The notes under the pieces are model-generated. The model was not told the DNA's origin. It did no database searches and worked only from the letters and a program-made list of their open reading frames with translations. 64,000 bases of DNA from Phycicoccus avicenniae. Its GTDB lineage: Bacteria; Actinomycetota; Actinomycetes; Actinomycetales; Dermatophilaceae. This document shows, one piece after another, positions 39,867-48,704 of the stretch. The translations under genes were made by a program, and so were the position numbers. The stretch covers positions 1 through 64,000 of the forward strand of contig NZ_JAGSNF010000019.1 of the NCBI RefSeq assembly GCF_018139485.1. Reading direction: 5' to 3'. The stretch's first letter is position 1. Each line of letters starts with the position of its first letter.

Positions 39867-39957
39867 CCGGCGACCCTCCGGCGACCGTCCGGGAGCCGCG
39901 CCCGAGTGGTGTCTGGTGCGACGCGTCCGGCGGCCCGTCGCCGCTAGCGTGAGCCCC

Positions 39958-40977
39958 ATGCGCGTCCTCGTCTCCGGCGGTGCCGGCTACATCGGGTCCC
40001 ACACCGTCGTCCGGCTCCTCGCCGCCCGCCACGAGGTGGTCGTCGTCGACTCCTTCGCGAACGCCAAGCCGTCGGTCGTCGGCCGGCTCGAGGCGCTGAC
40101 CGGGCAGCCGCTCGACGTCCGCTCGTTCGACCTCACCGACGTCGACAAGACCGAGCACCTCTTCGCGACGGAGACGATCGACGCCGTCATCCACTTCGCC
40201 GGGTACAAGGCCGTCGGCGAGTCGGTCGAGAAGCCGCTCGAGTACTACGAGAACAACCTCGGCTCGACGTTCTCGTTGGTCCGGGCGATGCGGCGGCACG
40301 GGGTCTCCAAGCTCGTGTTCTCGTCCTCCGCGACCGTCTACGGAGCGGACGCGCCGGTCCCGATGCGCGAGGATCTGCCGACGTCGGCGACGAACCCGTA
40401 CGGCTGGACGAAGGTGATGCAGGAGCAGGTGCTGCGCGACGTCGCCGTCGCCGACCCCTCGTGGCGGATCGCCCTGCTGCGCTACTTCAACCCCGTCGGC
40501 GCGCACCCGTCCGGGACGATCGGCGAGGACCCGTCGGACGTCCCGAACAACCTCATGCCCTACATCGCGCAGGTCGCGGTCGGGCGCCGGGAGTCGCTGC
40601 GGGTGTTCGGCGACGACTACGACACCGTCGACGGCACCGGGGTGCGCGACTACATCCACGTCGAGGACCTGGCAGCCGGGCACGTCGCGGCGCTGCACCG
40701 GCTGGGCGAGACCGACGACGCGGTGTCGACGTGGAACCTGGGGACCGGGCGGGGGACGTCGGTCCTGGAGCTGCTGCGGGCCTTCGAGCGGGCGTGCGGC
40801 CACACGCTGCCGTACGAGATCGCGCCGCGGCGGCCCGGGGACGTCGCGTCGTCCTACGCCGACCCGTCGCGGGCGGAGGCCGAGCTCGGCTGGCGGGCGG
40901 AGCGCACCGTCGACGACATGTGCGCCGACACGTGGCGCTGGCAGTCGCAGAACCCGCACGGCTACCCGGACGCCTGA
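39958..40977 (+). CDS. galE: UDP-glucose 4-epimerase
   Basis: 339-residue enzyme interconverting UDP-glucose and UDP-galactose. The N-terminus MRVLVSGGAGYIGSHTVVRL is the NAD-binding glycine motif. FSSSATVYGADAPVPMRE and NPYGWTKVMQEQVL give the catalytic Ser/Thr and YxxxK, and LRYFNPVGAHPSG and VRDYIHVEDLAAGH are diagnostic for GalE. It probably supplies UDP-galactose for envelope glycans, consistent with the glycosyltransferase group a few kilobases upstream. Confidence 0.94.
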   Translation: MRVLVSGGAGYIGSHTVVRLLAARHEVVVVDSFANAKPSVVGRLEALTGQPLDVRSFDLTDVDKTEHLFATETIDAVIHFAGYKAVGESVEKPLEYYENNLGSTFSLVRAMRRHGVSKLVFSSSATVYGADAPVPMREDLPTSATNPYGWTKVMQEQVLRDVAVADPSWRIALLRYFNPVGAHPSGTIGEDPSDVPNNLMPYIAQVAVGRRESLRVFGDDYDTVDGTGVRDYIHVEDLAAGHVAALHRLGETDDAVSTWNLGTGRGTSVLELLRAFERACGHTLPYEIAPRRPGDVASSYADPSRAEAELGWRAERTVDDMCADTWRWQSQNPHGYPDA

Positions 40978-41009
40978 CCGTCCGGTCCGGCGGCGTCGAC
41001 GCGCGCCCG

Positions 41010-41190
41010 GAGCCGGTCGGGCGACCCGCACCATCGGAGCGCCCGGGACCGGTCGGCCGGCGCGCCGCGTCGAAGAAGTCCGGGACCGGTCGGCCCGCCC
41101 GCCGCGTCGAAGCGCCTGGGACCGATCGGGCGACCCGCATCGTCGAAGCGCCCGGCACCGGTCGGGCGACCCGCATCGTCGGAGCGCCCG
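41010..41190. repeat. 36-bp tandem repeat, five units
   Basis: Units begin at 41010, 41046, 41083, 41119 and 41155; all are 36 bp except the second, which is 37. Consensus features are an opening G-x-ACCGGTCGG, a middle CGACCCGCAT and a closing GGAGCGCCCG. Units 1, 4 and 5 are closest; 2 and 3 diverge in the middle. The array starts 33 bases after the galE stop and decays into a partial sixth unit. It lacks spacers, so it is not CRISPR. The rest of the 447-bp gap to cydA holds hairpins and operators listed separately. Confidence 0.8.
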
Positions 41191-41248
41191 GCACGCGGCG
41201 TCGAGCGACCCGGCGTCCGCCCGCCGGTCCGAAGCAAGAGAACATCCC

Positions 41249-41282: not shown

Positions 41283-41307
41283 ACATTTCGGGGTGACCCC
41301 GAAATGT
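41283..41307. promoter_or_regulatory. Perfect 25-bp palindrome upstream of cydA
   Basis: Twelve-base arms (ACATTTCGGGGT and its complement) around a single central G. The A/T-rich outer part and the absence of a real loop favour a protein-binding site over a terminator, though it could do either. It lies 118 bases before the cydA start. Confidence 0.5.
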
Positions 41308-41365: not shown

Positions 41366-41399
41366 ACTACGTGCGGTAGTTTCTACTACGTCGCGTAGT
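41366..41399. promoter_or_regulatory. Two tandem CTACTACGT-type dyads, predicted BlaI/MecI-family operator of the cyd operon
   Basis: Site 2 is ACTACG-TCG-CGTAGT (41385-41399), a perfect dyad. Site 1 is ACTACG-TGC-GGTAGT (41366-41380) with one mismatch. They are 19 bp apart, about two helical turns, and share the flanking TTCT. The second ends 25 bases before cydA. TAC/GTA-rich dyads are the recognition style of the BlaI/MecI/CopY repressors, and a gene of that family lies at the end of this operon. Confidence 0.6.
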
Positions 41400-41424
41400 T
41401 ACCAGCCCGCCCGAGGAGACCCGC

Positions 41425-42876
41425 ATGGACGCGCTCGACGTCGCCCGGTGGCAGTTCGCCATCACGACCGTCTACCACTTCCTCTTCGTCCCCGTGACGA
41501 TCGGCATGTCGGCCGTCGTCGCCTACTTCCACACCCAGTGGGTCCGCACCCACCGGCCGGAGTACTACCGGCTCACGAAGTTCTTCGGGAAGCTCTTCCT
41601 CATCAACTTCGCCCTCGGGCTCGTCACCGGCATCGTCCAGGAGTTCCAGTTCGGGATGAACTGGTCGGACTACAGCCGGTTCGTCGGGGACATCTTCGGC
41701 GCCCCGCTCGCGTTCGAGGCCCTCCTCGCCTTCTTCCTCGAGTCGACGTTCCTCGGGCTGTGGATCTTCGGGTGGGGCCGGGTGCCGGAACGGCTGCACG
41801 CCGCGTCGATGTGGCTCGTCCACCTCGGCACGGTGCTGTCGGCCTACTTCATCCTCGCCGCGAACTCCTTCATGCAGAACCCCGTCGGCTTCCGGTTCAA
41901 CCCCGAGACCGGCCGCGCCGAGATGGCCGACTTCCTCGCGATCCTCACGAACAAGGTCCAGCTCGTCACCTTCCCGCACGTGATCTTCAGCGCGTACATG
42001 GTCGGCGGCGCGACCGTCATGGGCGTGGCGCTGTGGCTGCTGCGCCGCGAGCGCGGCACCGACGACGAGCCGCTGTACCGCAGGGCCGTCCGGGTCGGCG
42101 GCGTCGTCGCGCTCGTCGCCTCGCTGGGCGTCGTCGGGACCGGTGACGTCCAGGGCAAGATCATGACCGAGGTCCAGCCGATGAAGATGGCCGCCGCCGA
42201 GGCCCTCTACGACACGACCGACGGCGCCCCGTTCTCGGTCCTGTCGATCGGCTCGCTCGACGGGTCGGAGGCCACCCGGGTCATCGAGGTCCCCGGCCTG
42301 CTGAGCTTCCTCGGCACCGGTGACTGGGAGGGCCGCGTCGAGGGCATCGACGACCTGCGCGAGAGCGAGCGCGAGATGGCCCAGCGGGTCGTCGACCGCT
42401 ACGGCGCCGACATCGCCCCGTACGTCCAGGCCGACTCCTACGCCCCGGTCATCCCGCTCGCGTACTGGACCTTCCGGCTCATGATGGGCTTCGGCTTCCT
42501 CACGATGGCGCTCGCCGCCGCATCGCTGTGGGCCACCCGCGGCCGCCGCGTCCCCGTCTCGCGCTGGTGGACGCTCGTCGCCGTCCTCGCCCCGCTCTCC
42601 CCGGTCCTCGCGAACAGCTTCGGCTGGATCTTCACCGAGACCGGCCGCCAGCCGTGGGTCGTCTACGGCCTCATGACGACGCAGACCGCGGTCTCGCCGT
42701 CGGTGAGCGTCGGCGAGGTCTGGTTCTCGATGGTCGTCTACACCCTGCTCTACGCCGCGCTCGCCGTCGTCGAGGTCAAGCTCTTCCTCACGTACGTCCG
42801 CAAGGGCGCGGAGGAGTTCGTCGACCCGGCCGACCACGACACCCACGACGACGCCCCGCTGCAGTTCGCCTACTGA
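41425..42876 (+). CDS. cydA: Cytochrome bd oxidase subunit I
   Basis: 483-residue quinol-oxidising subunit carrying hemes b558, b595 and d. RWQFAITTVYHFLFVPVTIG contains the heme b595 ligand His18. FETGRQPW is represented by TETGRQPW near residue 405, the conserved quinol-oxidase motif. The Q-loop is of the short type. GAGGAGA precedes the ATG. First gene of cydABDC-blaI; it permits respiration at low oxygen or when the main oxidase is blocked. The operator-like repeats just upstream point to repression by a BlaI-type regulator. Confidence 0.96.
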   Translation: MDALDVARWQFAITTVYHFLFVPVTIGMSAVVAYFHTQWVRTHRPEYYRLTKFFGKLFLINFALGLVTGIVQEFQFGMNWSDYSRFVGDIFGAPLAFEALLAFFLESTFLGLWIFGWGRVPERLHAASMWLVHLGTVLSAYFILAANSFMQNPVGFRFNPETGRAEMADFLAILTNKVQLVTFPHVIFSAYMVGGATVMGVALWLLRRERGTDDEPLYRRAVRVGGVVALVASLGVVGTGDVQGKIMTEVQPMKMAAAEALYDTTDGAPFSVLSIGSLDGSEATRVIEVPGLLSFLGTGDWEGRVEGIDDLRESEREMAQRVVDRYGADIAPYVQADSYAPVIPLAYWTFRLMMGFGFLTMALAAASLWATRGRRVPVSRWWTLVAVLAPLSPVLANSFGWIFTETGRQPWVVYGLMTTQTAVSPSVSVGEVWFSMVVYTLLYAALAVVEVKLFLTYVRKGAEEFVDPADHDTHDDAPLQFAY

Positions 42877-42905
42877 CCCGGCGCGGACGGAAAGGACTCA
42901 CCCCC

Positions 42906-43934
42906 ATGGACCTCCAGCTCGTCTGGTTCGGACTCATCGGCCTCCTCTGGGCCGGCTACCTCGTCCTCGAGGGCTTCGACTTCGGGGTCGGCGCCCTCCT
43001 GCCCCGGCTCGGTCGCGGCACCGACGCCGTCGACTCCGAGAAGCGGCGCCGGGTCATGCTCACCGCGATCGGCCCACACTGGGACGGCAACGAGGTGTGG
43101 CTGCTCACCGCCGGCGGCGCGACGTTCGCCGCCTTCCCCGAGTGGTACGCGACGATGTTCTCCGCCTTCTACCTGCCGCTCCTGCTCGTCCTCGTCGCGC
43201 TCATCGTGCGGAACATGGGGCTGGAGTACCGGCACAAGCGGGACGACGCGCAGTGGCGCCGCCGCTGGGACACGGCGATCATCGCCGGCTCGGTCCTCGC
43301 GCCGTTCCTCATCGGGGTCGCGCTGACGAACGTCGTCCGCGGCCTGCCGATCGACGCCGACCTCGAGTTCACCGGGTCGCTGTTCACCCTGCTCAACCCG
43401 CTCGCCCTGCTCGGCGGCGCGACGGTGCTCGCCCTCTCGCTGACCCACGGTGCGGTCTTCGTCGCCCTCAAGACGACGGGGACGATCCGCGAGGACGCCC
43501 GCCGGCTCGCGACGCCGCTCGGGCTCGTCACGGCCGGGCTCGCCGTCGTCACGCTCGGCTGGCTCGGCCTGCTGTCCGGGTCGGTGTGGTCGTGGTCGAC
43601 GACCGTCGTCGCCGCCGCGGCGCTGCTCGGTGGGCTCGGTGCCAACGCCGTCGGCCGGGAGGGCTGGGCGTTCGCCGGGACCGCGGTGACGGGCGCGGCG
43701 ACCGTCGCGACGTACTTCCTCGCGCTCCACCCCGACGTCATGCCGACGACCTCGGCGGACGGACGGTCGCTGACGATCGCGAACGCCTCGAGCAGCCCGA
43801 TGACCCTCGAGATCATGACGTGGGCCGCGGTCGTCTTCACCCCCGTCGTCCTGCTCTACACCGGCTACACCTACTACGCCTTTCGCAAGCGGCTCGGGAC
43901 CCAGCACATCCCGGACGCCGTCGCGGTGAAGTAG
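42906..43934 (+). CDS. cydB: Cytochrome bd oxidase subunit II
   Basis: 342-residue membrane subunit paired with CydA. Characteristic are LVWFGLIGLLWAGYLVLEGF and DFGVGALLPRL at the N-terminus, then IGPHWDGNEVWLLTAGGATF and FAAFPEWYATMFSAFYLPLL, all strongly conserved in CydB. AAAGGA lies at a good distance before the ATG, 29 bp after cydA. The end is typical (YTYYAFRKRL). Confidence 0.96.
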   Translation: MDLQLVWFGLIGLLWAGYLVLEGFDFGVGALLPRLGRGTDAVDSEKRRRVMLTAIGPHWDGNEVWLLTAGGATFAAFPEWYATMFSAFYLPLLLVLVALIVRNMGLEYRHKRDDAQWRRRWDTAIIAGSVLAPFLIGVALTNVVRGLPIDADLEFTGSLFTLLNPLALLGGATVLALSLTHGAVFVALKTTGTIREDARRLATPLGLVTAGLAVVTLGWLGLLSGSVWSWSTTVVAAAALLGGLGANAVGREGWAFAGTAVTGAATVATYFLALHPDVMPTTSADGRSLTIANASSSPMTLEIMTWAAVVFTPVVLLYTGYTYYAFRKRLGTQHIPDAVAVK

Positions 43935-43942
43935 GTCCGTCG

Positions 43943-45562
43943 ATGCGCCCCCTCGACCCCCGGCTCCTGCGAGCGGCCCCGGCCGCACGCAGGCCCGTCG
44001 CGGCCCTCGCCGTCGTCGGCGTCCTCCAGGGTCTCGCGACGGTGGCGACGGCGTTCGCCCTCGCGGCGCTCGTCGTCGCCGCCGTGCGGGGCGAGCCGCT
44101 CCGCGAGGCCTCCCTGTCCCTCGCGGCGCTGCTCGCCCTGCGCGCCGGCCTCGCCTGGACCGCCGAGCGGACGGCGGCCCGGGCGGGTGCCCGAGTGACC
44201 GCGGCGCTGCGGACCGCCCTGCTGCGGCACTGGCTCACGGTCCCGGCCGAGCGCCGCCCCGACCCCGACCGTGGTGGCGTGCTCGCCGCGCAGGGGGTCG
44301 CCGCCGTCGAGCCCTATGCCGCGCGCTTCCTGCCGGCGCTCGTGTCGGCGGCGGTCGTCCCGGCCGCGGCTCTCGTCGCCCTGCTCGTCGTCGACCCGGT
44401 GAGCGCCCTCGTCGTCGTCCTCACCCTCCCGCTGCTCCCGGCGTTCGCCGCGCTCATCGGGATGGCGACCCGGGACGACACCGCCCGTCGCTGGGCATCG
44501 CTCTCGGCCCTGTCCGGGCACTTCGCCGACGTCGTGCGCGGGCTGCCGACCCTCGTCGGGTACGGCCGGGCCGAGCGCCAGGCCGAGGTCGTCGGCGAGG
44601 TGAGCCGCCGGCACCGGACGGCGACGATGCGCACGCTGCGGACCGCGTTCATGTCGTCCGCGGCGCTCGAGCTGCTCGCGTCGATCTCCGTCGCGATCGT
44701 CGCCGTCACCGTCGGCCTCCGCCTCACGCACGGCACCGTCGACCTCGGGACCGGGCTGCTCGCGATCCTCCTCGCCCCCGAGGCGTACTGGCCGGTCCGC
44801 CGGGTCGGGGCCGCCTTCCACGACGCCGCCGACGGGGCGGAGGCCGTCGCCGACGTCCTCGCGGCGATCGACGGCGACCCTGCGGTCGCCGACGGGGCGG
44901 CGACCGGCCGGTCGGGTGTCGAGCGGTCGGGTGCCGGCCGGTCGGGTGTCGACGTCCGGCTCGAGGACGTCACCTACACCTACCCGGGCGCCGCGTCCCC
45001 CGTCCTCGCCGGCCTCGACCTCGCCGCCGGGCCGGGCCTCACCGTGCTCACCGGGCCGTCGGGTTGCGGCAAGACGACCGTCCTCGAGCTCGTCGCCGGG
45101 CTGCGCACCCCCGACACCGGGTCCGTGCGCGCGGGCAGGACCCACCTCGTGACCCAGCGACCGTTCCTGCCGGCGGGCACCCTGCGGGAGGTGCTGCGCC
45201 TCGGCAGCGACGCCGACGACCCGGCGCTCTGGGACGCGCTGCGCGCCGTCGGCCTCGACGGCTTCGTCGCCGCCCTGCCCGCGGCGCTCGACACCCGGGT
45301 CGGCGACGACGGGGTCGGTCTGTCGGCCGGCCAGCGGGCCCGGGTCGTCCTCGCCCGGGCGATGCTCTCGGACGCGCCGGTGCTCCTCCTCGACGAGCCG
45401 ACGGCGCACCTCGACCCCGCCGCGAGCGCCCTCGTCCACGACGTCCTCGCCCGGCTGGCCGAGCGGCGGACCGTCCTCGTCGTCACCCACCGCCCCGAGC
45501 TCGTCGCGCGCGCCGACCGGCACCTCACGCTCGCGGCCCGACCCGTGGAGGCCCTTCGATGA
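43943..45562 (+). CDS. cydD: CydD, ABC transporter half for cytochrome bd assembly
   Basis: 539-residue transmembrane-ATPase fusion; with CydC it exports thiols or handles heme during cytochrome bd maturation. Six helices fill residues 15-310. The ATPase has Walker A GPSGCGKTT starting at residue 371, signature LSAGQRAR and Walker B VLLLDEPTAHLD. The signature differs from canonical LSGGQ, as is usual for CydD. The linker before the ATPase contains three tandem RSGV/A units encoded by 15-bp repeats (44909-44953). The ATGA overlap with cydC couples the two. Confidence 0.92.
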   Translation: MRPLDPRLLRAAPAARRPVAALAVVGVLQGLATVATAFALAALVVAAVRGEPLREASLSLAALLALRAGLAWTAERTAARAGARVTAALRTALLRHWLTVPAERRPDPDRGGVLAAQGVAAVEPYAARFLPALVSAAVVPAAALVALLVVDPVSALVVVLTLPLLPAFAALIGMATRDDTARRWASLSALSGHFADVVRGLPTLVGYGRAERQAEVVGEVSRRHRTATMRTLRTAFMSSAALELLASISVAIVAVTVGLRLTHGTVDLGTGLLAILLAPEAYWPVRRVGAAFHDAADGAEAVADVLAAIDGDPAVADGAATGRSGVERSGAGRSGVDVRLEDVTYTYPGAASPVLAGLDLAAGPGLTVLTGPSGCGKTTVLELVAGLRTPDTGSVRAGRTHLVTQRPFLPAGTLREVLRLGSDADDPALWDALRAVGLDGFVAALPAALDTRVGDDGVGLSAGQRARVVLARAMLSDAPVLLLDEPTAHLDPAASALVHDVLARLAERRTVLVVTHRPELVARADRHLTLAARPVEALR

Positions 45563-47310
45563 GCATCGCCCCCACCGCCGGGACGACCGATCGCACGGCC
45601 TCTCCCGCCGTGCCCGAGGGCCGCCTCGCCGCGGCCCGGCTGCGGCCCACCCGGGCCACCGTCCTCGGCGGCCTGCTCGGCGGGGCGGCGACGTCGGCCG
45701 GCATCGCCCTCACCGCGACGTCCGGCTGGCTCGTCGTCCGCGCGAGCGAGCGGCCCGTCCTCCTCACCCTCCTCGCGGCGATCGTCGCCGTGCGCGCCTT
45801 CGGGATGGCCCGGCCGGCGTTCCGGTACGCCGAGCGGCTCGTCACCCACGACGCCGCCCTCGCCGACCTCGCCGAGCGGCGCACCGCCGTGTGGTCGGCG
45901 CTCGTGCCGCTCACCCCCGCCCGGCTCGGCCGGCGCTCCCGGAGCGAGGTGCTGACCGGCGTCGTCGACGACCTCACCGACGTCGTCGAGGCGGAGGTGA
46001 GGGTCACCGTCCCCCTCGTCTCGAGCGCGCTCGCCGGGCTCGGGGCCACCGTCCTCGCCGCCGCCTTCTCCCCCGCCGTCGGGGCCGTCGTCGCCGGCCT
46101 CCTCGTCGCCGTCGCCGCCGGCTGCGCGCTCGCCTGGTGGTTCGAGTCGCGCTCGCGGGACGAGCTGCTCGCCGCGCGGGCCGACGTCGCCCGGGTGTCC
46201 GACCTCGTCGCCCGGCAGGCCGCCGAGCTGCAGGCGATCGGCGCGGAGGCCACGGCCTTGGGCTGGCTCGACGACGCGCACGACGTCCTCGCCCGGGCGG
46301 TCCGGCGGCAGAGCCTCGGCCGCGCCCTCGTCGCGAACCTGCTCCTCCTCGCGACGGCGGCCGCGACCGTCGCCGCTGCGTCGCTCGTCGACGTCGCGGC
46401 GCTCGGTGGGCCGGTCGCCGCCCTCCTCGTCCTCGTCCCCGTGGCGGTCGGCGAGGCGCTCGCGCCGCTCACCGACACGATGCGCGCCCTCGCCCGGGCG
46501 CAGGGCAGCGCGGACCGGCTCGCGGCCGTCCTCGGCCAGGAGCCCGCCGTCACCGACCCCGCCGGCGTCGACCCCACAGGCGTCGACCGCCCGGGCACCG
46601 CCCCCTCCGACACCGACTCCGCCGAGCCCGTCGCCGTCGACCGCGCGGACGTCCGCCTCGCGGCAGCGACAGCCTCGTGGACCGGCGAGCGCACCGACGT
46701 CGGGCCCCTCGACCTCGACCTGCCCGTCGGCACCCACCTCGCCGTCGTCGGCCCCAACGGCTCGGGCAAGTCGACCCTCCTCGCCGTCCTCGCCCGCCAC
46801 CTCGACGTCACCGGCGGCGCCCATCGCGTCGACGGCGCGGACGTCCGCTCCCTGCCGCTCGAGGAGATCCGCCGGCTCGTCGCCGTCGTCGACGACGAGC
46901 CGCACGTGTTCGCCTCGACCCTGCGCGAGAACCTCCGCCTCGCACGCCCCGCCGCCGCGGACGACGACCTGCGCCGCGCCCTCGTCCTGGCCGGGCTCGG
47001 CCCGTGGGCGGCGGGGCTGCCGGACGGGCTCGACACCGCGCTCGGCACCGGCGGGCGCGGGCTGTCCGGCGGTGAGCGGACCCGGCTCGGCGTCGCCCGG
47101 GCGGTGCTGTCGGACCGGCCGGTCGTCCTCCTCGACGAGCCGACCGCGCACCTCGACCACGCGACGGCGGTCTCCGTGACGGATGATGTGCTCGAGGCAC
47201 TGCGCGAGCGGACCGTCGTCCTCGTCGGGCACCGTCCCGAGGGGCTCGACCGCCTCGACGCCGTGCTCGACCTCGGCACCGCCGACCCGGTGCCCACCGC
47301 GAAGGAGTGA
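45559..47310 (+). CDS. cydC: CydC, ABC transporter half for cytochrome bd assembly
   Basis: 583-residue partner of CydD. Six membrane helices start with LGGLLGGAATSAGIALTATS and GWLVVRASERPVLLTLLAAI. An elongated linker around residue 335 carries repeated GVD units (DPAGVDPTGVDRPG). The ATPase then shows Walker A VGPNGSGKST from residue 397, signature LSGGERTRLG and Walker B VVLLDEPTAHLD. The last codons contain the ribosome site of the following repressor gene, so the repressor is made from the same transcript. Confidence 0.92.
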   Translation: MSIAPTAGTTDRTASPAVPEGRLAAARLRPTRATVLGGLLGGAATSAGIALTATSGWLVVRASERPVLLTLLAAIVAVRAFGMARPAFRYAERLVTHDAALADLAERRTAVWSALVPLTPARLGRRSRSEVLTGVVDDLTDVVEAEVRVTVPLVSSALAGLGATVLAAAFSPAVGAVVAGLLVAVAAGCALAWWFESRSRDELLAARADVARVSDLVARQAAELQAIGAEATALGWLDDAHDVLARAVRRQSLGRALVANLLLLATAAATVAAASLVDVAALGGPVAALLVLVPVAVGEALAPLTDTMRALARAQGSADRLAAVLGQEPAVTDPAGVDPTGVDRPGTAPSDTDSAEPVAVDRADVRLAAATASWTGERTDVGPLDLDLPVGTHLAVVGPNGSGKSTLLAVLARHLDVTGGAHRVDGADVRSLPLEEIRRLVAVVDDEPHVFASTLRENLRLARPAAADDDLRRALVLAGLGPWAAGLPDGLDTALGTGGRGLSGGERTRLGVARAVLSDRPVVLLDEPTAHLDHATAVSVTDDVLEALRERTVVLVGHRPEGLDRLDAVLDLGTADPVPTAKE

Positions 47311-47315
47311 CCCCC

Positions 47316-47714
47316 ATGCCGCACTCGACCTCCAGCCCCCGCCTCGGCGACCTCGAGCGGGTCGTCATGGAGCAGCTGTGGGAGCACGCCGGGGCCGAGG
47401 GGACGACCGTCCGGGAGGTCCACGAGGCGCTCGCGGGTGGCCGCGACATCGCGTACACGACCGTCATGACCGTCCTCGACCGGCTCGCCAAGAAGGACCT
47501 CGTGAGCCGCGAGCGCGACGGGCGGGCCTGGCGCTACCGGGCGGCGGCCTCCCGTGAGGCGCTCACGGCTAGGACGATGCGGATGACGCTCGACGACATG
47601 GACGTCACCGACCGGCGGGCGGCCCTGCTGCACTTCCTCGACGGGGCGAGCACGGCCGAGATCGACGACCTCAAGGCGGCGCTCGCCGAGGTCGAGGCGC
47701 GCCACACCGACTGA
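47316..47714 (+). CDS. blaI: BlaI/MecI/CopY-family transcriptional repressor
   Basis: 132-residue winged-helix repressor. The DNA-binding half is LGDLERVVMEQLWEHAGAEG, then TVREVHEALAGGRDIAYTTV and MTVLDRLAKKDLVSRERDGR, the hallmark A-Y-T-T-V-x-T-x-L-x-R-L recognition helix. The dimerisation tail is LLHFLDGASTAEIDDLKAALAEVE. ATG 47316 has GAAGGAG eight bases upstream, inside the end of cydC; the GTG at 47307 is an alternative. Likely binds the TAC/GTA dyads before cydA and so controls its own operon (inference). Inactivation may come through the M56 protease encoded next. Confidence 0.9.
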   Translation: MPHSTSSPRLGDLERVVMEQLWEHAGAEGTTVREVHEALAGGRDIAYTTVMTVLDRLAKKDLVSRERDGRAWRYRAAASREALTARTMRMTLDDMDVTDRRAALLHFLDGASTAEIDDLKAALAEVEARHTD

Positions 47715-47764
47715 CCGCCGGCGCGGACCGTCGGCTCCGCAGGCACCGGGGCTCGAGGCGGCAC

Positions 47765-47825
47765 CGACAGGCAGAAGCCGCCCACGCGTGGCGCAGCGTC
47801 GCCGCCGAGCTCCTCCTGCCTGTCG
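47765..47825. other. Long-range inverted repeat in the blaI-M56 gap
   Basis: CGACAGGCAG (47765-47774) and its perfect complement (47816-47825) enclose 41 bases of GC-rich sequence. In RNA this could form a stem that attenuates read-through into the metallopeptidase gene. By-eye observation only. Confidence 0.3.
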
Positions 47826-47861
47826 TTCCCGGCGACCGCGTACTCCTGGGAGGATCCCTGC

Positions 47862-48704
47862 GTGCTCCCGCTCGCCCTCGCCGGACTGGCCCTCGCGCTC
47901 GTCTGGGTCGCGCCGGGGCTCATGGCGGGGCAGACCCGGTTCCGGCGCGCCCCGCGGGCGGCGCTACTCGCATGGCAGGCGGTGTCGGTCGGCGGGGTGC
48001 TCGCGGCGCTGCTCGTCCCGCTCGCGACCCTGCCGATGCTGCTGCGCGGCGACGAGGTGACCGAGCACCCGTGGGTCACGGCGCTCGCCGTCCTCGTGAG
48101 CGTGGCGGTCCTCCTGCGCCTGCTCGTGTCCGGACACCTGGTCGGGACCCGGCTGCGGGCGGCCCGCGCCGAGCACCGCGAGCTCGTCGACGTCCTCGGC
48201 GCGGACGACGGGAACGGGGTCCGCGTCCTCGAGCACCCGATGCCGACCGCCTACTGCATCCCGGGGCGCGGGTCACGGGTCGTCCTCACCCGTGGGGTCC
48301 TCGACGCCCTGCCGCCGGACCAGCTGGCCGCCGTCGTCGAGCACGAGCGGGCGCACCTGCGGGCACGGCACGACCTGCTCCTGGAGTTCTTCACCGTCGT
48401 CCACGAGTCGGTGCCGGCGCGCCTGCGGGCACCCGGTGCGCTCGCCGAGGTGCGCCTGCTCGTCGAGGTGCTCGCCGACCGGGCCGCCGTCCGTCGTACC
48501 GGCGAGGTGACGACCGCCCGGGCGCTGCTGGCCGTCGCCGAGGGGCGGGTGCCCGACATCGGGGTGGGGGCAGCGGCATCGGCGCCGGTCCGGATGCGGC
48601 TGCTCACCGCGGGAGTGCAGCCGACGCTCGCCGCGGCGGCCTACGCCCTGGCGGTGACCGCGCTCGTCCTGCCCCCGGCCCTGCTCGCCCTCGCCTGGAC
48701 CTGA
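47862..48704 (+). CDS. M56-family (BlaR/MecR-like) membrane metallopeptidase
   Basis: 280-residue membrane zinc protease. Helices are at the N-terminus (LALAGLALALVWVAPGLMAG), residues 28-60 and 70-90, and near the C-terminus (AAYALAVTALVLPPALLALA). The catalytic H-E-x-x-H is in AAVVEHERAHLRARHDLLLE, with ITY/AYC-type substrate groove residues in PTAYCIPGRGSRVVLTRGVL. There is no beta-lactam sensor domain, so the signal is not a penicillin-like ligand. GGGAGGA lies seven bases before the GTG. By analogy with BlaR1/MecR1 it should cleave the upstream BlaI-type repressor. Confidence 0.87.
   Translation: MLPLALAGLALALVWVAPGLMAGQTRFRRAPRAALLAWQAVSVGGVLAALLVPLATLPMLLRGDEVTEHPWVTALAVLVSVAVLLRLLVSGHLVGTRLRAARAEHRELVDVLGADDGNGVRVLEHPMPTAYCIPGRGSRVVLTRGVLDALPPDQLAAVVEHERAHLRARHDLLLEFFTVVHESVPARLRAPGALAEVRLLVEVLADRAAVRRTGEVTTARALLAVAEGRVPDIGVGAAASAPVRMRLLTAGVQPTLAAAAYALAVTALVLPPALLALAWT

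Follow-up and report, generated by a model that had tools for sequence, protein, structure and literature searches.

The cytochrome bd operon of Phycicoccus avicenniae is, as judged from comparison of genomes, very probably repressed by a BlaI-type protein that is encoded together with it and that would act on two dyads located immediately upstream of cydA. The locus lies in a 64,000-nt stretch of contig NZ_JAGSNF010000019.1 (positions 1 to 64,000 of the forward strand; hereafter the window, to which coordinates refer unless a genome or locus label precedes them), within a genome of 3.54 Mb in 26 contigs that is 99.94% complete. The closest named relatives of its CydA belong to Phycicoccus (83-85% identity). 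The genes cydABDC are followed by blaI and by a gene for a BlaR1-like membrane protease, and we consider it likely that the whole constitutes a dedicated, self-contained switch in which BlaI would bind the dyads, limit its own synthesis and be relieved by the protease.

The distal dyad, ACTACGTGCGGTAGT (41366-41380), and the proximal dyad, ACTACGTCGCGTAGT (41385-41399), both putative BlaI operators without an assigned strand, start 19 bp apart, with 25 bases left between the second one and the ATG of cydA at 41425. A preliminary description of this DNA had placed two ACTACG/CGTAGT dyads here. Spacing and position agreed with that description, but only the second dyad is complete, being the sole exact ACTACGN3CGTAGT in the genome, while the first ends in GGTAGT; the core shared by both is ACTAC-N5-GTAGT. 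Counts of the motif were rejected as evidence, either in the window, where ACTACG-N3-CGTAGT with up to 3 mismatches occurred 20 times vs 17.2 in shuffled sequences, or in the whole genome, where the exact core occurred 4 times vs 5 for the reversed control and the longer motif at 2 mismatches 89 times vs 142. Two of the four exact cores precede cydA, another lies 28 bases before a PPOX-family gene and the last one 6 bases before the gene of a 175-aa predicted membrane protein. The double site with 19-bp spacing is found once in the genome, at cydA. Thus, what sets these dyads apart is their location and pairing, not their number.

The dyads became credible as operators through comparison across genomes. 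We collected 80 cydA loci from named species and sought the site within 300 bp upstream of cydA (one locus, L015, was dropped for site counts, leaving 79). BlaI adjoins cyd in 19 named loci: it follows cydC in seven (Phycicoccus, Terracoccus, Janibacter, Knoellia and Kytococcus), is divergent from cydA in 11 (Nocardioides, Marmoricola, Kribbella, Aeromicrobium, Phytoactinopolyspora, Tessaracoccus and one further actinobacterium) and lies upstream of cydA in the same direction in one (Serinicoccus). At up to 1 mismatch, the site was present in 18 of the 19 loci with an adjacent BlaI vs 8 of the 60 without (Fisher p 9e-11, not corrected for relatedness), and the exact site in 11/19 vs 8/60 (p 2e-4). 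Because BlaI may be downstream, divergent or upstream, linkage alone does not explain this pairing. The exact ACTACN5GTAGT occurred 25 times in the 23.7 kb upstream of cydA vs none in the remaining 1.449 Mb of the 80 loci, and the site at up to 1 mismatch 53 times vs 12, the remainder being mostly coding sequence and not a purely intergenic control. A whole-genome BlaI search, which covered 37 of the 60 loci without adjacent BlaI, showed that all eight site-bearing genomes among them encode an unlinked BlaI of 56-62% identity, each beside a protease gene. The 29 searched genomes without the site comprised 11 with no BlaI at E<=0.001, 14 whose BlaI were all below 56% identity and four with a BlaI of 56-58%.

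In Nocardioides, Marmoricola, Aeromicrobium and locus L049, the site was present in 6/6 loci with an adjacent BlaI and in 0/10 without. Mapped onto a tree of 68 CydA proteins, presence of the site requires 10 changes, at least 8 of them forced by well-supported branches, and because it changes so repeatedly the pairing of BlaI and site does not go back to one chance event passed on by descent. When 41 BlaI proteins were placed on a tree, eight whose genomes have no cyd site and which are at most 52% identical fell on one side of a branch with support 94/92, apart from the cyd-linked BlaI and from the unlinked BlaI of at least 54% identity. Neutral hitch-hiking of blaI was rejected, as the operator accompanies BlaI in three different gene orders, in genomes where BlaI is unlinked and through changes that recur on the tree.

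We then considered the family of the window's organism, in a sample of 40 genomes of which 36 have cydA. The site was found in 26 of the 27 cydA genomes with a BlaI at least 50% identical vs one of the nine others, seven of which have no BlaI and two a BlaI of 46%; the lone site-bearing genome among these nine carries a 46% BlaI that adjoins cydC, and the lone genome with a BlaI of at least 50% and no site is that of the Kytococcus aerolatus locus. BlaI adjoins cydC in 28 of the 30 family BlaI loci examined, of 35 matches. On a tree of 30 family CydA proteins, the BlaI label takes four changes, only one of which is forced by well-supported branches. We also searched for the double operator with a fixed 19-bp spacing and up to 2 mismatches, taking the reversed pattern as control. 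Among 297 genomes of the order it was present in 11, once in each and immediately before cydA in 11/11, and the control matched in one genome. In 396 genomes of the phylum it was found in five, four times before cydA (two of these already counted in the order search), again with one genome for the control; the fifth match (G663, 2 mismatches) had no cyd gene within the 1.7 kb available. Taken together, the co-occurrence of BlaI and site over genomes and gene orders strongly supports the idea, put forward in the preliminary description, that BlaI represses cyd at the dyads.

The exact site before the PPOX-family gene (G000:C4:46932-46946, L005:1501-1515; gene with PF12900, ATG at L005:1544) points to a candidate second BlaI target. 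Among 30 loci of PPOX-family homologues, that of the window genome included, a site with up to 1 mismatch lies within 250 bp in 10, all among the 16 closest. When 22 genomes were compared, the site was present in 10/13 with a BlaI of at least 50% identity vs 0/9 others, seven of them without BlaI and two with a 46% BlaI (p 5e-4, not corrected for relatedness). The nearest solved relatives of the gene product are named as uncharacterised or PPOX-like proteins that bind flavin mononucleotide. The 175-aa membrane protein gene, which belongs to no Pfam family and whose exact site is at G000:C1:141826-141840 (L003:1501-1515), was rejected as a third target, as the site is present in 0/4 homologues; an NCBIfam match to this protein was disregarded (20 bits vs a cut-off of 320).

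All genes of the operon are on the forward strand. They comprise cydA (41425-42876; cytochrome bd subunit I, PF01654, E 1.3e-163), cydB (42906-43934; subunit II, PF02322 and TIGR00203), cydD (43943-45562; TIGR02857, 483.5 vs a cut-off of 435 bits) and cydC (45559-47310; TIGR02868, 413 vs 329 bits), the first three starting with ATG and cydC starting inside the cydD stop in an ATGA overlap. Each product scores above the cut-offs, CydA by Pfam only, since it is below those of both E. coli-type NCBIfam CydA equivalogs. With its ATG only 5 bases past the cydC stop, blaI (47316-47714, 132 aa) most likely forms the fifth operon gene; as initially described, its ribosome-binding site is within cydC, at whose 3′ end AAGGAG (47302-47307) precedes that ATG by 8 nt. 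The protease gene (47862-48704, 280 aa) follows after a gap of 147 bp. The genome contains one BlaI-family gene and, at E<=0.01, one gene for a protease of BlaR1-like type.

A possible -10 element, TAGTTT (41377-41382, forward strand), spans the junction between the distal dyad and the linker. In an alignment of 26 double-operator promoters, chosen for having dyads so that the dyad columns are themselves selected, the first linker columns were A/T in 26/26 and T in 23/26, giving TAGTAT or TAGTTT; outside the dyads, a T precedes in 24/26 and an A follows in 21/26, and the linker is A/T-rich. A scan of the gap before cydA revealed no canonical sigma-70 promoter or terminator. Neither DosR-like nor Rex-like boxes were present in the window at the thresholds used (for DosR-like boxes with 2 mismatches, the background is 0.25 per 300 bp). 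Elsewhere, loci without BlaI sites often have GGGACN4GTCCC-like boxes, of DosR-like type, in the 300 bp upstream of cydA (L017-L091), and a Rex-like box with up to 2 mismatches was present upstream of cydA in 17/17 Streptomyces loci. Control of cyd thus seems to have passed from one regulator to another repeatedly.

The region upstream of the operon contains two further features. A tandem repeat of about six copies of a 36-bp unit (40993-41212) lies between an epimerase-family gene (39916-40977) and cydA. A 25-bp palindrome with 12-nt perfect arms, ACATTTCGGGGTGACCCCGAAATGT, is located at 41283-41307; its 17-bp core has 14 exact copies in the genome and none with 1 mismatch (the control gave 1 when up to 2 were allowed). 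Five inspected places look like dispersed repeats, and close relatives have the palindrome before cydA too.

PF03965 covers residues 10-124 of the window BlaI (98.5 vs a cut-off of 22.6 bits). By sequence, its nearest solved structure is 2g9w, that of Rv1846c, and its profile matches include 1sd4 and 1okr, winged-helix repressors of S. aureus type. CopY copper repressors carry C-terminal cysteines; the window BlaI has none and scores 41.4 bits for the CopY equivalog TIGR02698, under the cut-off of 121.95. Because 22/23 aligned BlaI sequences are devoid of cysteine, it is unlikely that BlaI itself senses redox state, thiols or copper, which makes the membrane protease the most likely point of entry for the signal. 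Phe107 of the window BlaI aligns with Phe102 of S. aureus BlaI (1sd4), the residue that follows the BlaR1 cleavage point according to PMC9834060. A Phe occupies this P1' position in 70/71 BlaI sequences. The exception is the Tessaracoccus BlaI (L060:9568-9921), which is encoded beside cydA in a locus without a protease gene.

With regard to the protease, it contains H161-E162-R-A-H165 and E202-V-L-A-D206, in which H161, E162, H165, E202 and D206 are invariant in 32/32 aligned proteins, and HEXXH plus EXXXD is the gluzincin signature of BlaR1 (PMC9834060). A structure model (predicted local distance difference test score, pLDDT, 94.4) and hydropathy agree on four hydrophobic stretches; the protease domain follows the third of these and precedes the fourth. 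As the preliminary description stated, the protein has no beta-lactam sensor: the chain stops where its last helix ends, at residue 280, and no C-terminal penicillin-binding domain follows. About 14 residues connect the second and third long helices, where the BlaR1 loop has 41 (56-96; PMC9834060). In VIA-align the best match was BlaR1 (8exs; Z 10.9, 214 residues, root mean square deviation 6.3), with ZMPSTE24 (4aw6; Z 10.0, 163 residues, deviation 3.2) tied with it, and the tool cautions about such Z values for helical models. None of the Foldseek matches reached E<=0.001, the two highest-ranked being ZMPSTE24 (E 0.021) and then BlaR1 (E 0.11). By Pfam, the sequence scores 14.6 bits for M56, below the cut-off of 31, and 38.3 bits for M48 (PF01435), above that of 20.3. 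The earlier M56 label is thus not borne out by Pfam, and because the sequence call is M48 we describe this membrane zinc protease, an M48/M56-type gluzincin, as BlaR1-like and not as a member of M56. Across the loci compared, the protease gene adjoins BlaI in most (17/19 named and 22/27 assessable family loci, counting adjacency only).

These data fit the following mechanism. BlaI dimers would occupy the two dyads, 19 bp apart and overlapping the likely cydA promoter, and would sterically block transcription of cydABDC. As blaI is inside the operon, BlaI would limit its own synthesis, making the loop self-limiting. The membrane part of the protease would sense a respiratory or membrane signal and BlaI would be cut before Phe107, which would end repression and raise the levels of cytochrome bd, CydDC and BlaI. 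Because the protease has no outer sensor, the signal would arise in or at the membrane, and because the target is cyd, respiratory state is the natural guess. For the closed circuit outlined in the preliminary description, this means that the part linking BlaI, operator and cyd is strongly supported, but the protease step is plausible only, given the HEXXH...EXXXD motifs, a fold that may be nearest to that of BlaR1 and the Phe in 70/71 sequences, and a minority of relatives have no protease gene beside BlaI.

Several observations weigh against such a switch. Regarding the operator, four genomes (L042, L053, L062 and L079) have an unlinked BlaI of 56-58% identity yet no site, Kytococcus aerolatus (L029) has linked BlaI and protease genes and no site at up to 1 mismatch, and the site of Tessaracoccus (L060) is weak. 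In addition, the identity lines of 56% and 50% were set after the data were seen. Regarding the protease, the Pfam call given above points to M48, and the fold evidence is moderate, the Foldseek matches being weak with ZMPSTE24 ahead and the Z of 10.9 being within the cautioned range. Furthermore, no protease gene adjoins BlaI in L024, L060 and 5/27 assessable family loci, and the operator persists in those five and in L024. Lastly, the Phe is retained in six of the seven BlaI that have no protease beside them, so this constant residue may be structural instead of a cleavage mark. The last two points favour an explanation that we regard as unlikely, namely that BlaI represses cyd but the protease is not its anti-repressor, relief coming from phosphorylation, a ligand or a second protease, while the one encoded here does something else or is a passenger. 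However, the protease gene of L188 and L196 is on the opposite strand to blaI and is still adjacent, and where a genome with a cyd site has an unlinked BlaI gene, a protease gene lies next to it in 8/8 cases, both as expected for a functional pair. Moreover, the sole BlaI of 71 without the Phe (L060) also lacks an adjacent protease, and the scarcity of cysteines makes thiol or copper sensing by BlaI an improbable substitute.

It could also be argued that the system responds to cell-wall or beta-lactam stress, as in staphylococci, and that cytochrome bd is included incidentally. BlaI does show the family resemblance, as the protease fold probably does, and in M. tuberculosis the transcripts of blaI-blaR and cydAB go up when a beta-lactam is given with clavulanate (PMC5473688). 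Nevertheless, a protease that ends at its last helix, lacks a sensor domain and has a short loop from helix 2 to helix 3 makes this decidedly improbable, as do the conserved targets found, cyd and the PPOX-family gene (cell-wall genes were not searched as targets). It is least credible of all, to the point of being very improbable, that the linkage of blaI is accidental and that the dyads belong to another regulator. In its favour, the genome count of single sites does not exceed the reversed control, and the GGGACN4GTCCC-like and Rex-like boxes upstream of cydA in many loci without BlaI sites indicate that cyd regulators turn over; against it, gains and losses of site and BlaI track each other through unlinked and rearranged states, and the site tracks BlaI at the PPOX-family gene too.

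The proposed switch resembles known systems in part. Like S. aureus BlaI/BlaR1 and MecI/MecR1, it combines a winged-helix repressor, a HEXXH...EXXXD membrane gluzincin of probably related fold and a Phe at the cleavage position, and the staphylococcal repressor and receptor genes form an adjacent pair. Unlike them, the window protease has no beta-lactam sensor and a shorter extracellular loop, and the target is respiration, not beta-lactamase. M. tuberculosis BlaI-BlaR (Rv1846c-Rv1845c) is another parallel, as it provides the closest solved BlaI relative (2g9w), a BlaR without sensor domain and a BlaI reported at the cyd promoter, but that BlaI also controls blaC and ATP synthase genes. The M. 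tuberculosis cydA is Rv1623c, so by locus numbers blaI-blaR lie away from cyd, whereas the window blaI is in the cyd operon and is the only BlaI, and its conserved targets found are cyd and the PPOX-family gene. Streptomyces Rex is likewise a repressor at an actinobacterial cyd promoter, but its cue is NADH/NAD+, its targets are numerous, it works without a protease and its operator is different.

An eLife study of 2017 (PMC5473688) describes the sensor-less M. tuberculosis BlaR and reports, citing Sala 2009, that BlaI binds the cytochrome bd and ATP synthase promoters. Of the other papers citing the same study, PMC7924339 mentions only ATP synthase genes and PMC8265638 only atpH and sigC in the parts available. 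A 2025 study finds that BlaI binds and represses the ATP synthase operon (PMC12565901), and the accessible portion of a 2020 review of mycobacterial oxidases lists RegX3 and the cyclic AMP receptor protein as cyd regulators and does not name BlaI (PMC7719681). Control of Streptomyces cydABCD by Rex is reported in PMC5355995, and the triggering of the sensor-less BlaR of M. tuberculosis is called unclear in PMC9834060. The preliminary description had considered the exact wiring not to be known; this does not apply to BlaI at a cyd promoter, as the M. tuberculosis report shows, but a dedicated form within a cyd operon was not found described in the open-licence literature, covered mostly as titles and abstract openings.

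All in all, the system is a dedicated and widespread form of a known switch; its encoding within the operon, its breadth, its doubled operator and its PPOX target had no counterpart in the literature covered. From the genomes compared, many soil actinobacteria appear to switch cyd, which encodes the backup respiratory enzyme cytochrome bd, with a repressor of BlaI type, familiar above all from penicillin resistance, usually together with a sensor-less partner membrane protease. The motif ACTAC-N5-GTAGT, often doubled at 19 bp, predicts BlaI-controlled cytochrome bd in several actinobacterial families, the PPOX-family gene adds a candidate second target, and a cyd operon with its own sole BlaI and BlaR-like protease makes the trigger of sensor-less BlaR simply testable. 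These findings suggest that a BlaI-type switch can respond to respiration instead of antibiotics. Tentatively, and with the odds leaning somewhat against it, we propose that sensor-less actinobacterial BlaR proteins may be respiratory sensors of the quinol pool, membrane potential or haem supply that would cut BlaI to raise cytochrome bd and the PPOX-family protein; respiration would then be an old and widespread duty of BlaI-BlaR in the phylum, and mycobacterial beta-lactamase control a side branch.

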